A stretch of DNA of 64,000 nucleotides from Pseudomonas laurentiana (GTDB lineage Bacteria > Pseudomonadota > Gammaproteobacteria > Pseudomonadales > Pseudomonadaceae): positions 1 to 64,000 of the forward strand of contig NZ_BMQU01000023.1 of assembly GCF_014648275.1 (NCBI RefSeq), written 5' to 3'. The translations under genes were made by a program, and so were the position numbers. Within the stretch, counting starts at the first letter, position 1; the number at the start of each line of letters is the position of its first letter. Below, piece by piece: positions 26,183-63,267 of this stretch. A model generated the notes under the pieces. It had not been told where the DNA came from, searched no databases, and saw nothing but the letters and a program-made list of their open reading frames with translations.

Positions 26183-26398
26183 TTAGGCGGCTGCTTTTTC
26201 TGGTGGAAAGGCGTCGTCCAAAGCGCACTTGGCGCCGAGTTCGTTGAGTGCCTCTACAATCTGGCGCGCCTCTTGGAGGCCTGGATTTCTCAGGCCTGAT
26301 TCGTAGTTGGCCAATCGAGACTGGTTCCAGCCGAGCTGACGTCGCAGCGCTGCCTGGGTAACGCCAGCCCTTTCGCGAATCGTTCGGACTTGGTTCAT
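26183..26398 (-). CDS. cro: Cro-like repressor
   Basis: 71 aa from the ATG at 26398 with GGAGGA upstream. Residues about 5-55 are an HTH_3 domain (VRTIRERAGVTQAALRRQLG, NQSRLANYESGLRNPGLQEA). It is divergent from the CI-type repressor and the first gene of the rightward lytic operon. Its DNA-recognition helix resembles that of CI (WNQSRLANYE vs WSQSRVGNYE), so both should bind the shared operators. Confidence 0.87.
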   Translation of the reverse strand: MNQVRTIRERAGVTQAALRRQLGWNQSRLANYESGLRNPGLQEARQIVEALNELGAKCALDDAFPPEKAAA

Positions 26399-26423
26399 GC
26401 GGTCTTCCTCCATTGATTACCGA

Positions 26424-26452
26424 AGGATAAACACGCATCGTGTTAATTGCAA
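26424..26452 (-). promoter_or_regulatory. PR-type promoter for cro
   Basis: Minus strand TTGCAA (26452-26447), 17-bp spacer, TATCCT (26429-26424). The perfect operator AACACG-CAT-CGTGTT fills the spacer, so bound CI or Cro would block RNA polymerase. Confidence 0.75.
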
Positions 26453-26501: not shown

Positions 26502-27305
26502 ATGAACGAATCACTAGCTCAGCGCTTGAAGCGCTTACGGAAGACGTCCGGGATGTCGCAGGCTTCTCTTGCTGAAGCTTGCGGATGGTCGCAGTCGCGC
26601 GTCGGCAACTACGAGGCAGGTACTCGTGAGCCGAGCCTGGCCGACATCGCAACCATGGCAGCAGCCATGAAAGTGGACCAATCGGAACTGCTACTCAATG
26701 CTCCGATAGGCGTCGCCTCCGAAAATCAGCCCGCATCTGCCGCCGATGTGGTGCGCGAGATGCTCGCGAAGTCTGGCAAGAACCTGTCGGCTGAAGCGCG
26801 CCACAGGCTTCTAGCGGCCGCAGAAGAGTCAGATGATACCAATGTGATCACCGGGGACTTCTCGCGACCAGGCCTGGTTGGTGACGAGGTATGGATTGCT
26901 CACTATGACGTGAGAGCCGCCATGGGTGGCGGGCAGAGTGCACACGACTTCCCTGAGATGCTTAAGGACATTCGTGTCAGCCCAAGCCACCTGCGCGAGC
27001 TCGGGGTTGAGTTTGAAGAGCACTATCACCTGAAGATGGTGACCGGCTGGGGTCAGTCAATGGAGCCCACCATCAAGCACCGCGATCCGTTGATAGTGAA
27101 CATCAACATCCGCGAGTTCGTGGGCGACGGGATCTACCTCTTCTACTGGGATGACCACATCTACATCAAGCGCCTGCAGGTCGCTGATGAGGACCATTTC
27201 GAGATGATTTCGGATAACACCAGGCACAAGGATCGGCTGATTCGCCGGGATATGACTTATATCCAGGCCCGCGTCCTTCTGGTCTGGAATGCTCACCTGG
27301 TGTAG
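26502..27305 (+). CDS. CI-type prophage repressor (HTH + S24 peptidase)
   Basis: 267 aa. N-terminal HTH_3 (LAQRLKRLRKTSGMSQASLA, CGWSQSRVGNYEAGTREP), a linker with RAAMGGGQS as the likely self-cleavage region, then a LexA-like S24 domain with the Ser in VTGWGQSMEPTI and the Lys in IYIKRLQ. It maintains lysogeny and should be inactivated by RecA during SOS. Transcribed away from cro. Confidence 0.93.
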   Translation: MNESLAQRLKRLRKTSGMSQASLAEACGWSQSRVGNYEAGTREPSLADIATMAAAMKVDQSELLLNAPIGVASENQPASAADVVREMLAKSGKNLSAEARHRLLAAAEESDDTNVITGDFSRPGLVGDEVWIAHYDVRAAMGGGQSAHDFPEMLKDIRVSPSHLRELGVEFEEHYHLKMVTGWGQSMEPTIKHRDPLIVNINIREFVGDGIYLFYWDDHIYIKRLQVADEDHFEMISDNTRHKDRLIRRDMTYIQARVLLVWNAHLV

Positions 27306-27598: not shown

Positions 27599-27709
27599 GT
27601 AGGCAGATGTGACCTGATGGCAAGCTACTCGTCTAAAGTTTATTGATCGTGCTGTAGTGAAAGCCCAAAATTGGATTTTAGGTTTAACCCACGGACAAGG
27701 GAGGGGCAA

Positions 27710-28402
27710 ATGAAAAAAGTAGACTCGCCAAGCCGCCTCATTGGGGTGGGCCTGTACACAGCTGGAGAGGCATCTCTTTATACTGGTATCTCGGCAAAAG
27801 ACATCAGGCGCTGGATGTTCGGTTACAGCGCTCATGGCGTAGACCACCCGGGGCTTTGGACTCCAGAGCTATCCTTCTTGGATGAGAAGTTGCTTGGCTT
27901 CCATGACTTGTTAGAGATTCGCTTTGTGCATGCATTTAGGCAGCACGGCGTCAGTCTTCAAGCTATTCGAAGCGCTTCCCGGCAGGCTAGAGAGCTTTTT
28001 GACCAACAGTACCCATTCACTTGTAAGCGATTCCAAACTGATGGGCGCGACATTTTCGCTACCGTTTTAGACGAGACTGGTGACGAGGCACTTCTCGACC
28101 TAGTGAAGAGGCAATACGCCTTCAAGCAGGTAATCAAACCTTCACTTTACGAAGGCATCGACTACACCGGTGAGGGGGCAGCCCAACGATGGTATCCGAT
28201 AAAACGAAGCAAAGCAGTTGTGCTAGACCCAGCCAGAAATTTTGGGAAGCCGGTCCTATCTTCTGCGGGTATTGATACAGCTGCCATCTACCATACTTAT
28301 CAAGCAGAAGGTCAAGACTCCAAACGCGTGGCAATGATCTTCGAAATATCGACTGCGGCAGTGGATGCAGCAGTAACCTTTGAGCATAGGATTGCTGCTT
28401 GA
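27710..28402 (+). CDS. DUF433-type antitoxin
   Basis: 230 aa from the ATG at 27710 with GGAGGGG upstream. The N-terminal 100 residues have LYTAGEASLYTGISAKDIRR, a MerR-like HTH, and FHDLLEIRFVHAFRQHGVSL. The C-terminal part contains AGIDTAAIYHTYQAEGQDSK and VAMIFEISTAAVDAAVTFEH, the DUF433 HTH that pairs with PIN-like toxins. It overlaps the toxin gene by 4 nt (TTGA). It should neutralise the toxin and repress the operon. Confidence 0.8.
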   Translation: MKKVDSPSRLIGVGLYTAGEASLYTGISAKDIRRWMFGYSAHGVDHPGLWTPELSFLDEKLLGFHDLLEIRFVHAFRQHGVSLQAIRSASRQARELFDQQYPFTCKRFQTDGRDIFATVLDETGDEALLDLVKRQYAFKQVIKPSLYEGIDYTGEGAAQRWYPIKRSKAVVLDPARNFGKPVLSSAGIDTAAIYHTYQAEGQDSKRVAMIFEISTAAVDAAVTFEHRIAA

Positions 28403-28806
28403 ATTTTCTGATTGATAACAATCTACCACCAGCAATCGCCAGAGCCCTTCACGAGCTATCCAAGAGTGAGGGGCATCTAGTAATCCCCCTCAAAGACAAA
28501 TTCCCCTCAAACGCAACAGATATCTATTGGATCTCTGAGCTTAAGGCCGAAGGCGGGTGGGCGGTAGTGTCACAGGACAAATTTTCTAAAGGTGACGCCG
28601 AGAGGCTGGCATTTAGGGAGTGCGGCCTGCCGATTTTCTGTCTGGCGAAGCAATGGGGCCAGATGACTTACTGGAACAAAGCAGAAAATCTCGTGCGGTG
28701 GTGGCCAGCCATAACCCAGCAAGCTGGATTGATCAGTGGCGGCGCTGCATTCCGAGTCCCATGGAGATTTACTGCTCCAGGAAAATTCGAGCAGATCAAA
28801 ATTTAG
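28399..28806 (+). CDS. PIN-like (VapC45/DUF5615-type) toxin
   Basis: 135 aa, TTG start overlapping the antitoxin stop. It begins MNFLIDNNLPPAIARALHEL, with the first catalytic Asp of PIN-like nucleases, then FPSNATDIYWISELKAEGGW, SQDKFSKGDAERLAFRECGL, and a hydrophobic FCLAKQWG strand. Family members are RNases kept in check by the DUF433 partner. A role against competing phages is inference. Confidence 0.8.
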   Translation: MNFLIDNNLPPAIARALHELSKSEGHLVIPLKDKFPSNATDIYWISELKAEGGWAVVSQDKFSKGDAERLAFRECGLPIFCLAKQWGQMTYWNKAENLVRWWPAITQQAGLISGGAAFRVPWRFTAPGKFEQIKI

Positions 28807-30030: not shown

Positions 30031-30357
30031 TCAGAACGGCGCCTCTTCCTCCAGCAACCCCTCCTCCCAATCCTTCTCAACGATCAAGTCGTCGCGATCC
30101 TCGGCGTTCTGCTGTTCCCACCGCACTGTCACGCTCTCGTCATCGTTGAACGTCAGGTCCAGCTCCGGCGTTTCAGCAAGCAGCCCCATCACCTCCTCCC
30201 AATCCGCATCGCCATCCGTGTCTAGCCGATGGATCGTCACCCATCGCTGAGACTGAGCAATTGGGTGGTTGATCATCGAAGAGACCCGTAGCCCGAGTCG
30301 CTCTAGTCCGGTCATCTCCTGGCGAGCTTGTGGTGCCGCCTTCCTCTGCTTGGCCAT
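30031..30357 (-). CDS. DUF1654 family protein (prophage copy)
   Basis: 108 aa, AGGAGG upstream of the ATG. GLERLGLRVSSMINHPIAQS, DADWEEVMGLLAETPELDL and VTVRWEQQ align by eye with the chromosomal DUF1654 protein at 62323 (YEQLGLRIQKVINSPTAQKA, DDWETLLEEIAENDNVTL, VQIFWVV). The family is typical of Pseudomonas and its phages. A LexA box lies 17 bp upstream of its start, so induction by SOS is likely. Role unknown. Confidence 0.85.
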   Translation of the reverse strand: MAKQRKAAPQARQEMTGLERLGLRVSSMINHPIAQSQRWVTIHRLDTDGDADWEEVMGLLAETPELDLTFNDDESVTVRWEQQNAEDRDDLIVEKDWEEGLLEEEAPF

Positions 30358-30373
30358 AACTCAACCTCCTTTA

Positions 30374-30389
30374 CTGTATATCCATCCAG
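30374..30389 (-). promoter_or_regulatory. LexA (SOS) box before prophage DUF1654 gene
   Basis: CTGTATATCCATCCAG on the + strand (CTGGATGGATATACAG on the gene strand) keeps the CTG-N10-CAG frame and an AT-rich arm. A CI-type operator begins 19 bp further upstream, at 30408. Confidence 0.7.
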
Positions 30390-30407
30390 CATTAAGCACG
30401 AGGATAC

Positions 30408-30512
30408 ATCACGCCTCGTGAAACGTGAACCCGCCTCGTAGGGAAAATCTTTAACACACCCATGGAAAAATAAATCACGATGCGTGTTGACATTAAAAAC
30501 ACGATGCGTGAT
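30408..30512. promoter_or_regulatory. OL operators
   Basis: Three sites of the OR family: ATCACGCCTCGTGAA (30408-30422), ATCACGATGCGTGTT (30474-30488) and AACACGATGCGTGAT (30498-30512). The last two straddle the -35 and -10 of the early promoter. They are near-identical to OR site 1 read on the other strand. Confidence 0.8.
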
Positions 30513-30515
30513 ATT
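30487..30515 (+). promoter_or_regulatory. PL-type early promoter
   Basis: TTGACA (30487-30492), 17-bp spacer, GATATT (30510-30515), overlapped at both boxes by CI-type operators. It should drive the + early operon toward integrase. Confidence 0.8.
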
Positions 30516-30866
30516 TACTTCACGCAGTCACCCAACAGGGACCGCGCAGGCCCTCAAGGCCAACCGCTCTTTAACAACCAGATGGACGCCGAGCTGGCCG
30601 ATGCATAGCCAGCGGACGTACCGCGCAACGGTACGCAGCGATTCGACCTCATGTCGGCGCTGGGCATAGGAGACCTCATTCGGAGGGCGTAGCTGGTAAA
30701 GCTGCGTGGTGATTAGTACGGCGGCTTGGCCCTAACGGGCGCCCTGAAAATCACGGACGGGAAAGCGACCGTCGGCCTATGCAAGAGAAAGAGATTACCG
30801 GCCTGCCGAGTGTAGGCCGGATGCTCTCCAGGTGACCCTATCCCAGGGTCACGCGGAGAGCAAACC
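30516..30866 (+). other. Untranslated leader of the early operon, with boxA
   Basis: About 350 nt without a supported gene. At 30565-30577 it holds CGCTCTTTAACAA, a canonical boxA as in rRNA and nut leaders. Near the end are hairpins CCGGCCT...AGGCCGG (about 30798-30820) and GTGACCCTATCCCAGGGTCAC (30832-30852). The layout suggests transcription antitermination of the long operon; a boxB could not be fixed. Confidence 0.6.
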
Positions 30867-43499: not shown

Positions 43500-43901
43500 A
43501 TGGCAAACGCAAGTGCAGCCAGGGTTTCCGCCATCGCCCCGCGATTCATCCGGTTCGGCGAAGCCCCTGGCTACCTCGGCATGTGCCGAGACGAATTCAA
43601 CAAAACAGTAAGACCCCACGTACAGGAGTTTCCAATTGGAAAACAGGGCGTTGCCTTCGACCGGTTAGAGCTGGACGAGTGGGCAGACGCCTATGTGCAG
43701 GCAAAGTCGATTGAAAAAGCATCGGTTCAGGACAACAATCGGCCCCGCAGCGAGCGCCGAGGAGACACCATATGGCGCGAAAAACGATCACCGGTCTCTA
43801 CGAGAAAGGCGGTGTCTGGCAAATCGACAAAGTCTACAGGGGGGAGCGAATTCGAGAGAGCACTGGCACTGGTGACCGGGAAGAAGCAGAGCAGTACCTG
43901 A
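43500..43901 (+). CDS. Putative excisionase/AlpA-like protein
   Basis: 133 aa. APRFIRFGEAPGYLGMCRDE and FPIGKQGVAFDRLELDEWAD form a MerR/excisionase-type winged HTH in the first 65 residues; the rest is basic and overlaps the integrase start by 130 nt in another frame. Position just before integrase supports an Xis role. Confidence 0.72.
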   Translation: MANASAARVSAIAPRFIRFGEAPGYLGMCRDEFNKTVRPHVQEFPIGKQGVAFDRLELDEWADAYVQAKSIEKASVQDNNRPRSERRGDTIWREKRSPVSTRKAVSGKSTKSTGGSEFERALALVTGKKQSST

Positions 43902-44947
43902 TTCACAAGCTGGAGCAGCTTCGGCAGCAGAAGGTTTATGGGGTTCGTCAGGTCAGAACTTGGGAGGAAGCGGCTACGCGCTACCTCCTGGAGTCAAAGG
44001 ACCAGCCATCCATTCACCTGACAGCGCTGTGCATGAAACAGCTTCACCCATTCATCGGGCATCTGCCGCTCACCCATATCGATGATCAGGCGCTTGAACC
44101 GTTCATCAAGGATCGGCAGACGGCGAAGGTCTTGGATGATGGGCGCGTGCAGAAGCCAGTGAGCAACCGGACGATCAACATCGCGATCGAGCGAGCAGTC
44201 AGGGTGTTGACCCTGTGTGCTCGAAAGTGGCGGGATGATGATCGTCGGCCGTGGCTGGATAGCGTGCCAATGCTGAAAAAGCTGGAGGAGAAGAAGTCGA
44301 GCCGAAAGCCCTACCCAATGTCATGGGAAGAGCAGTCGATTCTATTTGGTGAGCTTCCAGGCCACCTGCAGACCATGGCCCTGTTCAAGGTGAACACTGG
44401 GTGTCGGGAGCAGGAGGTATGCAAACTGAGGTGGGATTGGGAGATATCAGTGCCGGAACTGGGTACCAGTGTTTTCCTGATACCTGCTGACTTCGGCGGG
44501 AGGCACGCCCGGTCGGGCGTAAAGAATGGCGACGAACGCCTGGTGGTATTGAACAGCGTGGCCAAGTCGATCATTGAGAAGCAGCGCGGAATCAGCCGGG
44601 AGTGGGTTTTCCCATACAACGGCACCGCAATGCACCGCATGAACGACTCGGCCTGGCGAAAAGCAAGATTGCGCGCGGCAAAGAAATGGCAGGAAGAGAA
44701 CTTGAGGCCCGCGCACCCTGGATTCGCATCATTCAGGGTTCACGACCTCAAGATGACCTTCGGGCGAAGGCTGCGGGCAGCAGGTGTGAGCCATGAAGAT
44801 CGTCAGTCACTTCTCGGTCACAAGAGCGGGAATGTGACAACCCACTACTCGGGGGCCGAGCTCAAGCAACTGATTGATGCAGCCAACCTTGTCGCTAATG
44901 TTGGGCGCAGTACGCCAACGCTTACGATTTTGAGGCATAGAGCATGA
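43772..44947 (+). CDS. int: Tyrosine integrase
   Basis: 391 aa. N-terminal arm-binding strand (KTITGLYEKGGVWQIDKVYR), SAM-like domain, and catalytic domain with Arg in FKVNTGCREQEVCKLRW, HDLKMTFGRRLRAAGV (His and Arg of box II) and GHKSGNVTTHYS with the nucleophilic Tyr. Site is the adjacent tRNA-Pro. The start overlaps the excisionase-like gene. Confidence 0.93.
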   Translation: MARKTITGLYEKGGVWQIDKVYRGERIRESTGTGDREEAEQYLIHKLEQLRQQKVYGVRQVRTWEEAATRYLLESKDQPSIHLTALCMKQLHPFIGHLPLTHIDDQALEPFIKDRQTAKVLDDGRVQKPVSNRTINIAIERAVRVLTLCARKWRDDDRRPWLDSVPMLKKLEEKKSSRKPYPMSWEEQSILFGELPGHLQTMALFKVNTGCREQEVCKLRWDWEISVPELGTSVFLIPADFGGRHARSGVKNGDERLVVLNSVAKSIIEKQRGISREWVFPYNGTAMHRMNDSAWRKARLRAAKKWQEENLRPAHPGFASFRVHDLKMTFGRRLRAAGVSHEDRQSLLGHKSGNVTTHYSGAELKQLIDAANLVANVGRSTPTLTILRHRA

Positions 44948-62262: not shown

Positions 62263-62303
62263 TTGCGAAATGGCCTACAGTAAAATACTGTATGCACATA
62301 CAG
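62263..62303 (+). promoter_or_regulatory. Promoter with LexA box for DUF1654-endA
   Basis: TTGCGA (62263-62268), 17-bp spacer, TACTGT (62286-62291). The perfect inverted SOS box CTGTATGCACATACAG (62288-62303) overlaps the -10, so LexA should block it and DNA damage should induce it. Confidence 0.8.
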
Positions 62304-62322
62304 CAAAAACAAGGAACGCTCC

Positions 62323-62571
62323 ATGGCAACCACCTCCTCAGCATCAACCCCCGCCAGCAGCTACGAACAACTCGGCCTGCGCATCCAGAAAGTCATCAAT
62401 TCGCCGACCGCACAGAAAGCACGGTCAGCACTGATCTTTCGCCTGGAACATGAATCCCCCGACGACTGGGAAACCCTGCTCGAAGAAATCGCCGAGAACG
62501 ATAACGTCACGCTCGCGCATCGCGATGATGGCGGCGTTCAGATTTTCTGGGTTGTACCGAAGGAAGATTGA
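62323..62571 (+). CDS. DUF1654 family protein (chromosomal copy)
   Basis: 82 aa. YEQLGLRIQKVINSPTAQKA, PDDWETLLEEIAENDNVTLA, VQIFWVVPKED. Same family as the prophage protein at 30031. It is 6 nt before endA and under a LexA box, so it is a damage-response protein, perhaps acting with or on the nuclease. Function not established. Confidence 0.9.
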   Translation: MATTSSASTPASSYEQLGLRIQKVINSPTAQKARSALIFRLEHESPDDWETLLEEIAENDNVTLAHRDDGGVQIFWVVPKED

Positions 62572-62577
62572 GCACGC

Positions 62578-63267
62578 ATGAGATTCAAGATTTTTGCAGT
62601 GCTCTGCCTGCTGCTCAGTTTCGCCGCCCACGCCGACGCCCCCCGCACGTTCAGCGAAGCCAAAAAAGTGGCCTGGAAGCTGTACGCCCCGCAATCGACC
62701 GAGTTCTATTGCGGCTGCAAATACAAGGGCAACCGTGTCGACCTCGAAGCGTGCGGTTATGTGCCGCGCAAAAACGCCAGCCGTGCCGCACGGATCGAAT
62801 GGGAGCACATTGTGCCAGCCTGGCAAATTGGCCATCAGCGCCAGTGCTGGCAGGACGGCGGACGCAAGAACTGCTCGCGCAATGACCAGGTCTATCAGCG
62901 CGCCGAAGCCGACCTGCACAACCTGGTACCGAGCATCGGCGAGGTCAACGGTGACCGCAGCAACTTCAGCTTTGGCTGGCTACCCGAGCAGAGCGGACAA
63001 TACGGCTCGTGCCTGACCCAGATCGACTTCAAGGCGAAGAAGGTGATGCCGCGCCCATCCATTCGAGGCATGATCGCGCGCACCTACTTCTATATGAGCA
63101 AACAGTACAACCTGCGCCTGTCAAAACAGGATCGCCAGCTGTACGAGGCCTGGAACAAAACCTACCCACCCCAGGCCTGGGAACTTCAGCGCAACCAGCG
63201 GGTGGCGTGCGTCATGGGCCACGGCAATGAGTTTGTCGGACCGGTAAACATGAAGGCCTGCGGTTGA
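62578..63267 (+). CDS. endA: Endonuclease I (periplasmic/secreted DNase)
   Basis: 229 aa. Signal peptide (MRFKIFAVLCLLLSFAAHAD), then YCGCKYKGNRVDLEACGY, IEWEHIVPAWQIGHQRQCWQ with the EWEHIVPA catalytic His, and DLHNLVPSIGEVNGDRSNFS. Degrades double-stranded DNA. SOS control together with DUF1654 is inferred from the operon. Confidence 0.95.
   Translation: MRFKIFAVLCLLLSFAAHADAPRTFSEAKKVAWKLYAPQSTEFYCGCKYKGNRVDLEACGYVPRKNASRAARIEWEHIVPAWQIGHQRQCWQDGGRKNCSRNDQVYQRAEADLHNLVPSIGEVNGDRSNFSFGWLPEQSGQYGSCLTQIDFKAKKVMPRPSIRGMIARTYFYMSKQYNLRLSKQDRQLYEAWNKTYPPQAWELQRNQRVACVMGHGNEFVGPVNMKACG

Follow-up and report, generated by a model that had tools for sequence, protein, structure and literature searches.

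DUF1654, a Pseudomonas family of small proteins with conserved upstream LexA boxes, includes a prophage member with predicted LexA-CI control and an SSB-like C-terminal tail

Introduction

Prophage genes gated by the SOS response are already known, and PP3901, carried by prophage P1 of Pseudomonas putida KT2440, is among them. According to the available excerpts of PMC4595014, PP3901 alone is controlled by both LexA1 and LexA2; it responds to nalidixic acid and H2O2 and, in work cited there, to mitomycin C, and it is needed for DNA damage to induce other prophage genes (Abella et al. 2007, via PMC4595014). Here, we analyzed a 64,000-nucleotide stretch of Pseudomonas laurentiana (assembly GCF_014648275.1, contig NZ_BMQU01000023.1, positions 1 to 64,000), referred to as the window, which carries one prophage gene and one chromosomal gene of the family to which PP3901 also belongs, DUF1654 (PF07867). 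The family name was found in one paper, a phage description whose excerpted text calls the function unknown; thus, PMC4595014 does not use it.

Other described systems resemble the prophage locus in part. The 186 Tum and Gifsy/Fels Ant proteins are, like the prophage DUF1654 protein, small phage proteins encoded behind a LexA box that help induction, and Tum-type antirepressors serve repressors that RecA cannot cleave. The present locus differs in that its phage repressor is of the S24 type, a single DUF1654 type is associated with several operator types, and a chromosomal paralogue exists. DinI-type modulators are likewise small SOS proteins of host and phages, but no sequence relation was found between them and DUF1654, which was seen in Pseudomonas only among the genomes sampled. 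Finally, the tips of the bacterial single-stranded DNA-binding protein (SSB; DDDIPF) and of the phage HK620 SSB (NDYPPF) share with the prophage DUF1654 protein acidic residues followed by a free C-terminal Pro-Phe on a disordered tail; in contrast to these SSBs, the DUF1654 protein has no SSB domain match and a core predicted as H-H-E-H-E-E (H, helix; E, strand), and it is not an SSB. In the portion of PMC5928155 available, the HK620 tip is reported to be needed to bring Sak4 to SSB-covered single-stranded DNA (ssDNA).

Results

Two DUF1654 genes of the window lie behind its best LexA boxes. The prophage gene (30031 to 30357, minus strand) encodes a 108-aa protein that matches PF07867 (E 3.1e-26, 91.3 bits) and PHROG 2707, a group of unknown function. 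The chromosomal gene (62323 to 62571, plus strand) encodes an 82-aa, tail-less protein ending ...VPKED (E 5.5e-32, 109.8 bits). Both proteins exceed the curated family cut-off of 27 bits over the whole domain, and neither matched any other Pfam family at E values up to 1. They are 39% identical over 62 aa (BLASTP E 1e-13), and their predicted folds have the same H-H-E-H-E-E element order, although fold models and profile comparison do not count as independent support because both groups are present in both alignments. The homology that a sequence-only reading of the window had proposed at these coordinates therefore stands. The wording of that reading that the prophage gene copies the host gene finds no such backing: in the tree, the long phage clade is separate from the chromosomal one, with no direction indicated. 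Comparison of the core folds gave no clear lead on function.

The box of the prophage gene (CTGTATATCCATCCAG, 30374 to 30389) and that of the chromosomal gene (CTGTATGCACATACAG, 62288 to 62303) each match 13 of the 16 positions of CTGTATATATATACAG, which we take to be the LexA consensus. As that reading had also stated, both genes have a box. These two are the top LexA-type boxes of the 64 kb; the next CTG-N10-CAG scores 9. Bare patterns were not enriched in the window (33 CTG-N10-CAG sites versus 26.6 expected; 234 CTGT-N8-ACAG sites with 2 mismatches versus 260 expected), and thus the inner bases carry the case for the boxes. Both genes have CTG-N10-CAG with AT-rich inner bases at the promoter, the sequence signature of an SOS regulon member.

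The LexA box is a near-constant feature of DUF1654 genes. To survey the family, loci were drawn from chromosomal-type relatives (the best 80 of at least 131), viral relatives (the best 80 of 284), a genus survey, and seven named phages. Of 59 genomes sampled across Pseudomonas, 52 contained DUF1654, as did 51 phage records. A class-wide draw of 274 genomes, in which the same taxonomic family was represented by one other genome and the same order by two more, gave DUF1654 in the window's own genome only. After removal of duplicates, 255 domain matches remained (one split gene counted twice, and loci not independent); 252 of them had a CTG-N10-CAG scoring at least 11 within −260 to +60 of the domain start, at a median position of about −43. 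The three misses are a locus that starts 25 bp upstream of the gene (L151), a 5'-truncated gene (L247), and a site with a one-base departure, CTGTATGTATATACAT (L224). By group, the box was kept in 80/80 chromosomal-type and 79/80 viral loci. Among 15 named phage records, out of the 51 matched, it stood near the annotated start in 14; in the remaining one, TC7, it was seen when measuring from the domain.

Conservation of the box exceeds that of its surroundings. Representatives with less than 50% core identity had it in 11 of 12 cases, L224 being the exception. Across these 11, mean pairwise identity was 79% for the box and 66% for its inner ten bases, which the search leaves free; successive 16-bp stretches upstream gave 39%, 34%, and 26%. 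As a control, only 22 of 1,629 other open reading frames (ORFs; at least 80 aa, same loci) had a box within −100 to +10, and the 22 include at least 14 divergent ORFs sharing the DUF1654 intergenic region. The survey of upstream boxes that the earlier reading had suggested thus came out in its favor. Altogether, these sequence data argue strongly that the small proteins of the DUF1654 family in Pseudomonas are under almost invariable predicted SOS control, and control by LexA is, on this evidence, nearly certain.

Additional observations were made on these loci. The phage loci L085, L086, L088, and L156 have a second LexA-like box (CTGGTTTGATGTACAG type) just past the DUF1654 gene, at a distance of about 349 bp from its start. 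Records titled Pantoea (L014) and Paucimonas (L015) hold a Pseudomonas-type locus at 81% and 90% identity, respectively, and are probably mislabelled genomes. The P. aeruginosa locus tags PA0922 and PA2288, considered as candidate DUF1654 genes, led nowhere.

A putative CI operator lies within the likely promoter of the prophage gene. Upstream of the prophage gene, a −35-like TTCACG (30424 to 30429, minus strand) and a −10-like TATCCT (30401 to 30406, minus strand) were read from the sequence; the −10 precedes the LexA box by 11 bp. The 17-bp spacer between the hexamers contains a CI-type operator, TCACGCCTCGTGA (30409 to 30421), 19 bp from the LexA box, where the sequence-only reading had placed it. 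TTCACG-17-TATCCT is below the threshold of the promoter scan and was not listed by it; the scan gave only the divergent, PL-like early promoter, TTGACA-17-GATATT (30487 to 30515, plus strand), with 1 found versus 0.5 expected by chance in the region. This rightward promoter is placed between two further CI-type operators found by pattern search (30475 to 30487 and 30499 to 30511); the operator of the early promoter also occurs inside the DUF1654 −35/−10 spacer. A fourth (26431 to 26443) lies between the gene for a CI-type repressor (26502 to 27305, plus strand) and that for a divergent, Cro-like helix-turn-helix (HTH) protein identified by domain scan (26183 to 26413, minus strand). WCACG-N(2-4)-CGTGW matches these four sites, starting at 26431, 30409, 30475, and 30499, and nowhere else in the window; the looser CACG-N(2-6)-CGTG adds 21020, 39617, and 48116. 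The repressor combines HTH_3 (E 2.3e-12) with Peptidase S24 (PF00717, E 3.5e-16) and matches PHROG 4 (repressor).

The Cro-like gene is followed by lambda-P-like and DnaT-like genes, and the rightward operon reaches an integrase gene at 43772 to 44947. By this layout, DUF1654 marks the left end of the immunity region; its transcription runs away from the early operon and toward CI. DUF1654 is placed alike in the annotated phages F116, LESphi3, phi297, and TC7, whereas P. putida P1 has other neighbors.

We further typed the upstream regions of 79 viral loci and the window by repeated putative operator motifs. Among the 80 regions, 36 were of the TCACGNNNCGTGA type, 26 of TGCCTAA, 9 of GCTAAA, 6 of TGCACNNGTGCA, and 3 of other types. 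The type's own motif occurred no more than 60 bp before the box in 36/36 TCACGNNNCGTGA regions (with up to 2 mismatches), 25/26 TGCCTAA regions, 8/9 GCTAAA regions (as a half-site), and 0/6 TGCACNNGTGCA regions. The TCACGNNNCGTGA-type operator was 18 to 20 bp from the box in all 36 of its regions, the window counted. A −10-like hexamer, from hexamers chosen after reading the sequences, stood 8 to 12 bp before the box in 79/80. Across these types, the LexA box is thus constant and the putative immunity operator variable. Of 20 other DUF1654 phage records, 19 had an S24 match, not in each case confirmed as the immunity repressor, and the one without is a 9.6-kb fragment; thus, both repressor inputs probably answer to RecA. 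Binding of LexA and CI at the prophage locus is predicted from sequence; on that basis, dual LexA-CI control there is very probable. If both repressors act, the gene would be an AND gate that responds to DNA damage in a lysogen.

Two features near these sites are recorded. An HTH_66-like and PIN_10 gene pair between CI and DUF1654 (27671 to 28806, plus strand) resembles a toxin-antitoxin or exclusion module of a lysogeny cassette. The untranslated early leader contains CGCTCTTTAACAA (30565 to 30577, plus strand), which resembles what we take to be the boxA of antitermination sites, and it may be an antitermination region.

PP3901 is a DUF1654 gene. Four published PP3901 primers map around a DUF1654 gene in one IMG/VR contig (L257), whose product gave E 1.9e-28 with our own hidden Markov model. 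This gene is preceded by a box, CTGTCTATGCATACAG, and also has GTACAAATGTGC, similar to GTACN4GTGC, which we take to be the LexA2 motif. Like the window prophage gene, PP3901 is prophage-borne with a LexA box just upstream and an S24-type phage repressor, S24 and HTH lying within one frame in P1. Its identity is 29% with the window prophage copy (82 aa aligned) and 48% with the host copy (69 aa aligned). It differs from the prophage copy in being without the acidic PF tail, in its extra LexA2-like site, and in its neighbors. The proposal that the family acts in the DNA damage and prophage induction response, made from the window alone, had therefore already been partly tested under a locus tag; the box survey and the PP3901 report, so far as its excerpts go, speak for it. 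A role of DUF1654 in prophage induction thus appears probable, by analogy with one homologue reported second hand.

The prophage protein carries an SSB-like acidic tail. The prophage DUF1654 protein ends ...EKDWEEGLLEEEAPF, and the coding part of this tail (...EEGLLEEEAPF-COOH) spans 30034 to 30108 on the minus strand. It has the sequence traits of an SSB tip, namely, acidic residues, then a free C-terminal Pro-Phe, on a tail predicted to be disordered (predicted local distance difference test score <50 for residues 91 to 106). The genome's own SSB, a single match located on another contig, ends ...DFDSFDDDIPF; the SSB (OB-fold) domain PF00436 was not found in the prophage DUF1654 protein by Pfam scan. 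The genus survey, for which the domain was the only query, gave 86 rows. Of these, 56 have ED or DD at the end, in most cases the chromosomal ...VPKED type; among the other 30, 18 end PF, and PY, PL, and DF ends occur once each. Viral relatives with a stop end PF in 77 of 79 cases, in a set biased toward tails because the query was the entire protein with its tail. A PF end was absent from all 107 endA-linked copies.

Linkers vary strongly between lineages and the tip is kept in 12 of 14 tail-bearing representatives (11 wrongly split rows set aside). The 100 PF-ending genes use seven Pro-Phe codon pairs, one pair accounting for 71. Other ORFs end PF in 8 of 1,324 cases, and only two of these have 3 or more acidic residues ahead of PF, namely, the genome's SSB and one DUF1654 missed by the filter. 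A general role of the tail is, nonetheless, weakened by the named phages and by the tree. Only 4 of 15 named phage records have a PF end, and 2 of the 12 named phages infecting P. aeruginosa do. PotUPM1 ends AF; phi297, P54, P52, and D14S have long tails with other ends, and six are short. Moreover, the tail label needs three changes on the tree. Weighing both sides, we judge that the tail is probably an SSB-tip mimic, as its residues suggest.

The SSBs of some DUF1654 phages were also inspected. In three (L269, L270, and L271), DDDIPF is internal with extra residues after it (...DDDIPFAPLHHLAGA or similar), and in the F116 SSB (L273), DDDIPF is likewise followed by extra residues (...DDDIPFDNPYRRLWRIV), so that the free tip bound by partners would be masked; the R656 SSB (L274) ends DDDIPF.

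Chromosomal DUF1654 is paired with endA. An endA-like Endonuclease I gene (62578 to 63267, plus strand; PF04231, E 6.2e-37) begins 6 bp downstream of the chromosomal DUF1654 gene. Among 80 related loci, an endA match was present in 64 and an asparaginase gene in 53. As judged from this arrangement, chromosomal DUF1654 and endA (62288 to 63267) are probably one SOS unit.

The genome holds a third DUF1654 copy (G000:C3:74340-74549; L248), which is tail-less and has the LexA box CTGTTCATTCATACAG. On one side, it is neighbored by a toxin/repressor pair and a DNA methyltransferase and on the other by host-like ORFs; it probably belongs to another prophage.

Discussion

The family-wide box rule, the two-repressor promoter, and the SSB-like DUF1654 tail were not found in print in the literature searched, and searches on phage SSB-tip mimics returned nothing on DUF1654. 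As our best model, which we hold tentatively, we propose an induction factor that is made only under SOS conditions and uses its tail to dock on the SSB partners of the host. The prophage gene would have its own promoter, with the LexA site just downstream of the −10 and the CI site in the spacer. LexA self-cleaves with RecA help, and the S24-type CI, as predicted from its domain, should do so too; because both would be RecA-cleaved, the DUF1654 protein should appear only in a DNA-damaged lysogen. LexA would hold the gene off in an undamaged, newly infected cell, and CI would do so in a resting lysogen. The protein would then promote induction at the ssDNA/RecA stage, its conserved core doing a shared job (tail-less PP3901 being reported as needed for prophage induction) and the flexible acidic tail of many phage copies imitating the SSB C-terminal tip to dock the core on host SSB-partner proteins. 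Such partners include ExoI, RecO, RecJ, RecQ, PriA, and the like. Docking could spare ssDNA or redirect the partner proteins to the excising phage. We infer the docking partner and its effect, and the mechanism in exactly this form is doubtful. A more specific version is possible, if less than probable: an SOS-gated SSB-tail decoy with a free DDDIPF-like tip on a DUF1654 core, made only when both LexA and CI are cleaved, would seize SSB-recruited repair enzymes at excision. It would be either the descendant or the source of an SOS protein that occurs throughout Pseudomonas and promotes prophage induction through its core.

The same regulation could serve other functions. An SOS-controlled antirepressor in the style of Tum or the Gifsy Ant, freed by LexA cleavage to bind CI and lift repression, would fit the LexA box, the site beside the immunity operators, and the need for PP3901 in induction reported in the PMC4595014 excerpts. 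We nevertheless consider it unlikely, because the repressors concerned are of the S24 type here, as in P1 and as the related records suggest, because DUF1654 is also chromosomal, beside endA, and because viral loci 71 to 89% identical to the window DUF1654 span at least four putative operator types. With several operator types, the repressors probably differ too, and this speaks against a CI-specific partner. Another alternative is a modulator of RecA or LexA in the manner of DinI, RecX, or PsiB, which would tune the length of the response and let phages prolong or end SOS. The protein's small size, its SOS box, and its presence in 52 of 59 Pseudomonas genomes, with extra prophage copies, agree with such a role; since no other Pfam family, DinI included, was matched at E values up to 1, we give this explanation a minor though real share of our belief.

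The tail, too, can be read differently, as a degradation or folding signal of a short-lived SOS protein. Some SOS proteins are unstable, and the tail is predicted to be disordered; yet its tip joins three traits of the SSB C terminus (acidic stretch, proline, and free C-terminal phenylalanine) across varying linkers, and among the other ORFs examined, this combination was found only in SSB, which makes a mere stability signal improbable. That boxes and operator are chance or inherited functionless sequence is hardly credible. CTG-N10-CAG alone is indeed common in the window, but the box is kept as upstream DNA diverges and across phages with different operators, and the homologue PP3901 is damage inducible according to the excerpted report.

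Through SOS control, a published induction phenotype, and an SSB-like tail, an anonymous domain gains concrete tests. If the tail is real, the phage borrows the recruitment hub of bacterial repair enzymes, timed by a two-repressor gate, and the decoy version, if true, would establish a class of SSB-tip mimics that do not belong to the SSB family. On the chromosome, DUF1654-endA would be an SOS unit conserved in the genus, with a damage-induced secreted nuclease as a possible implication.
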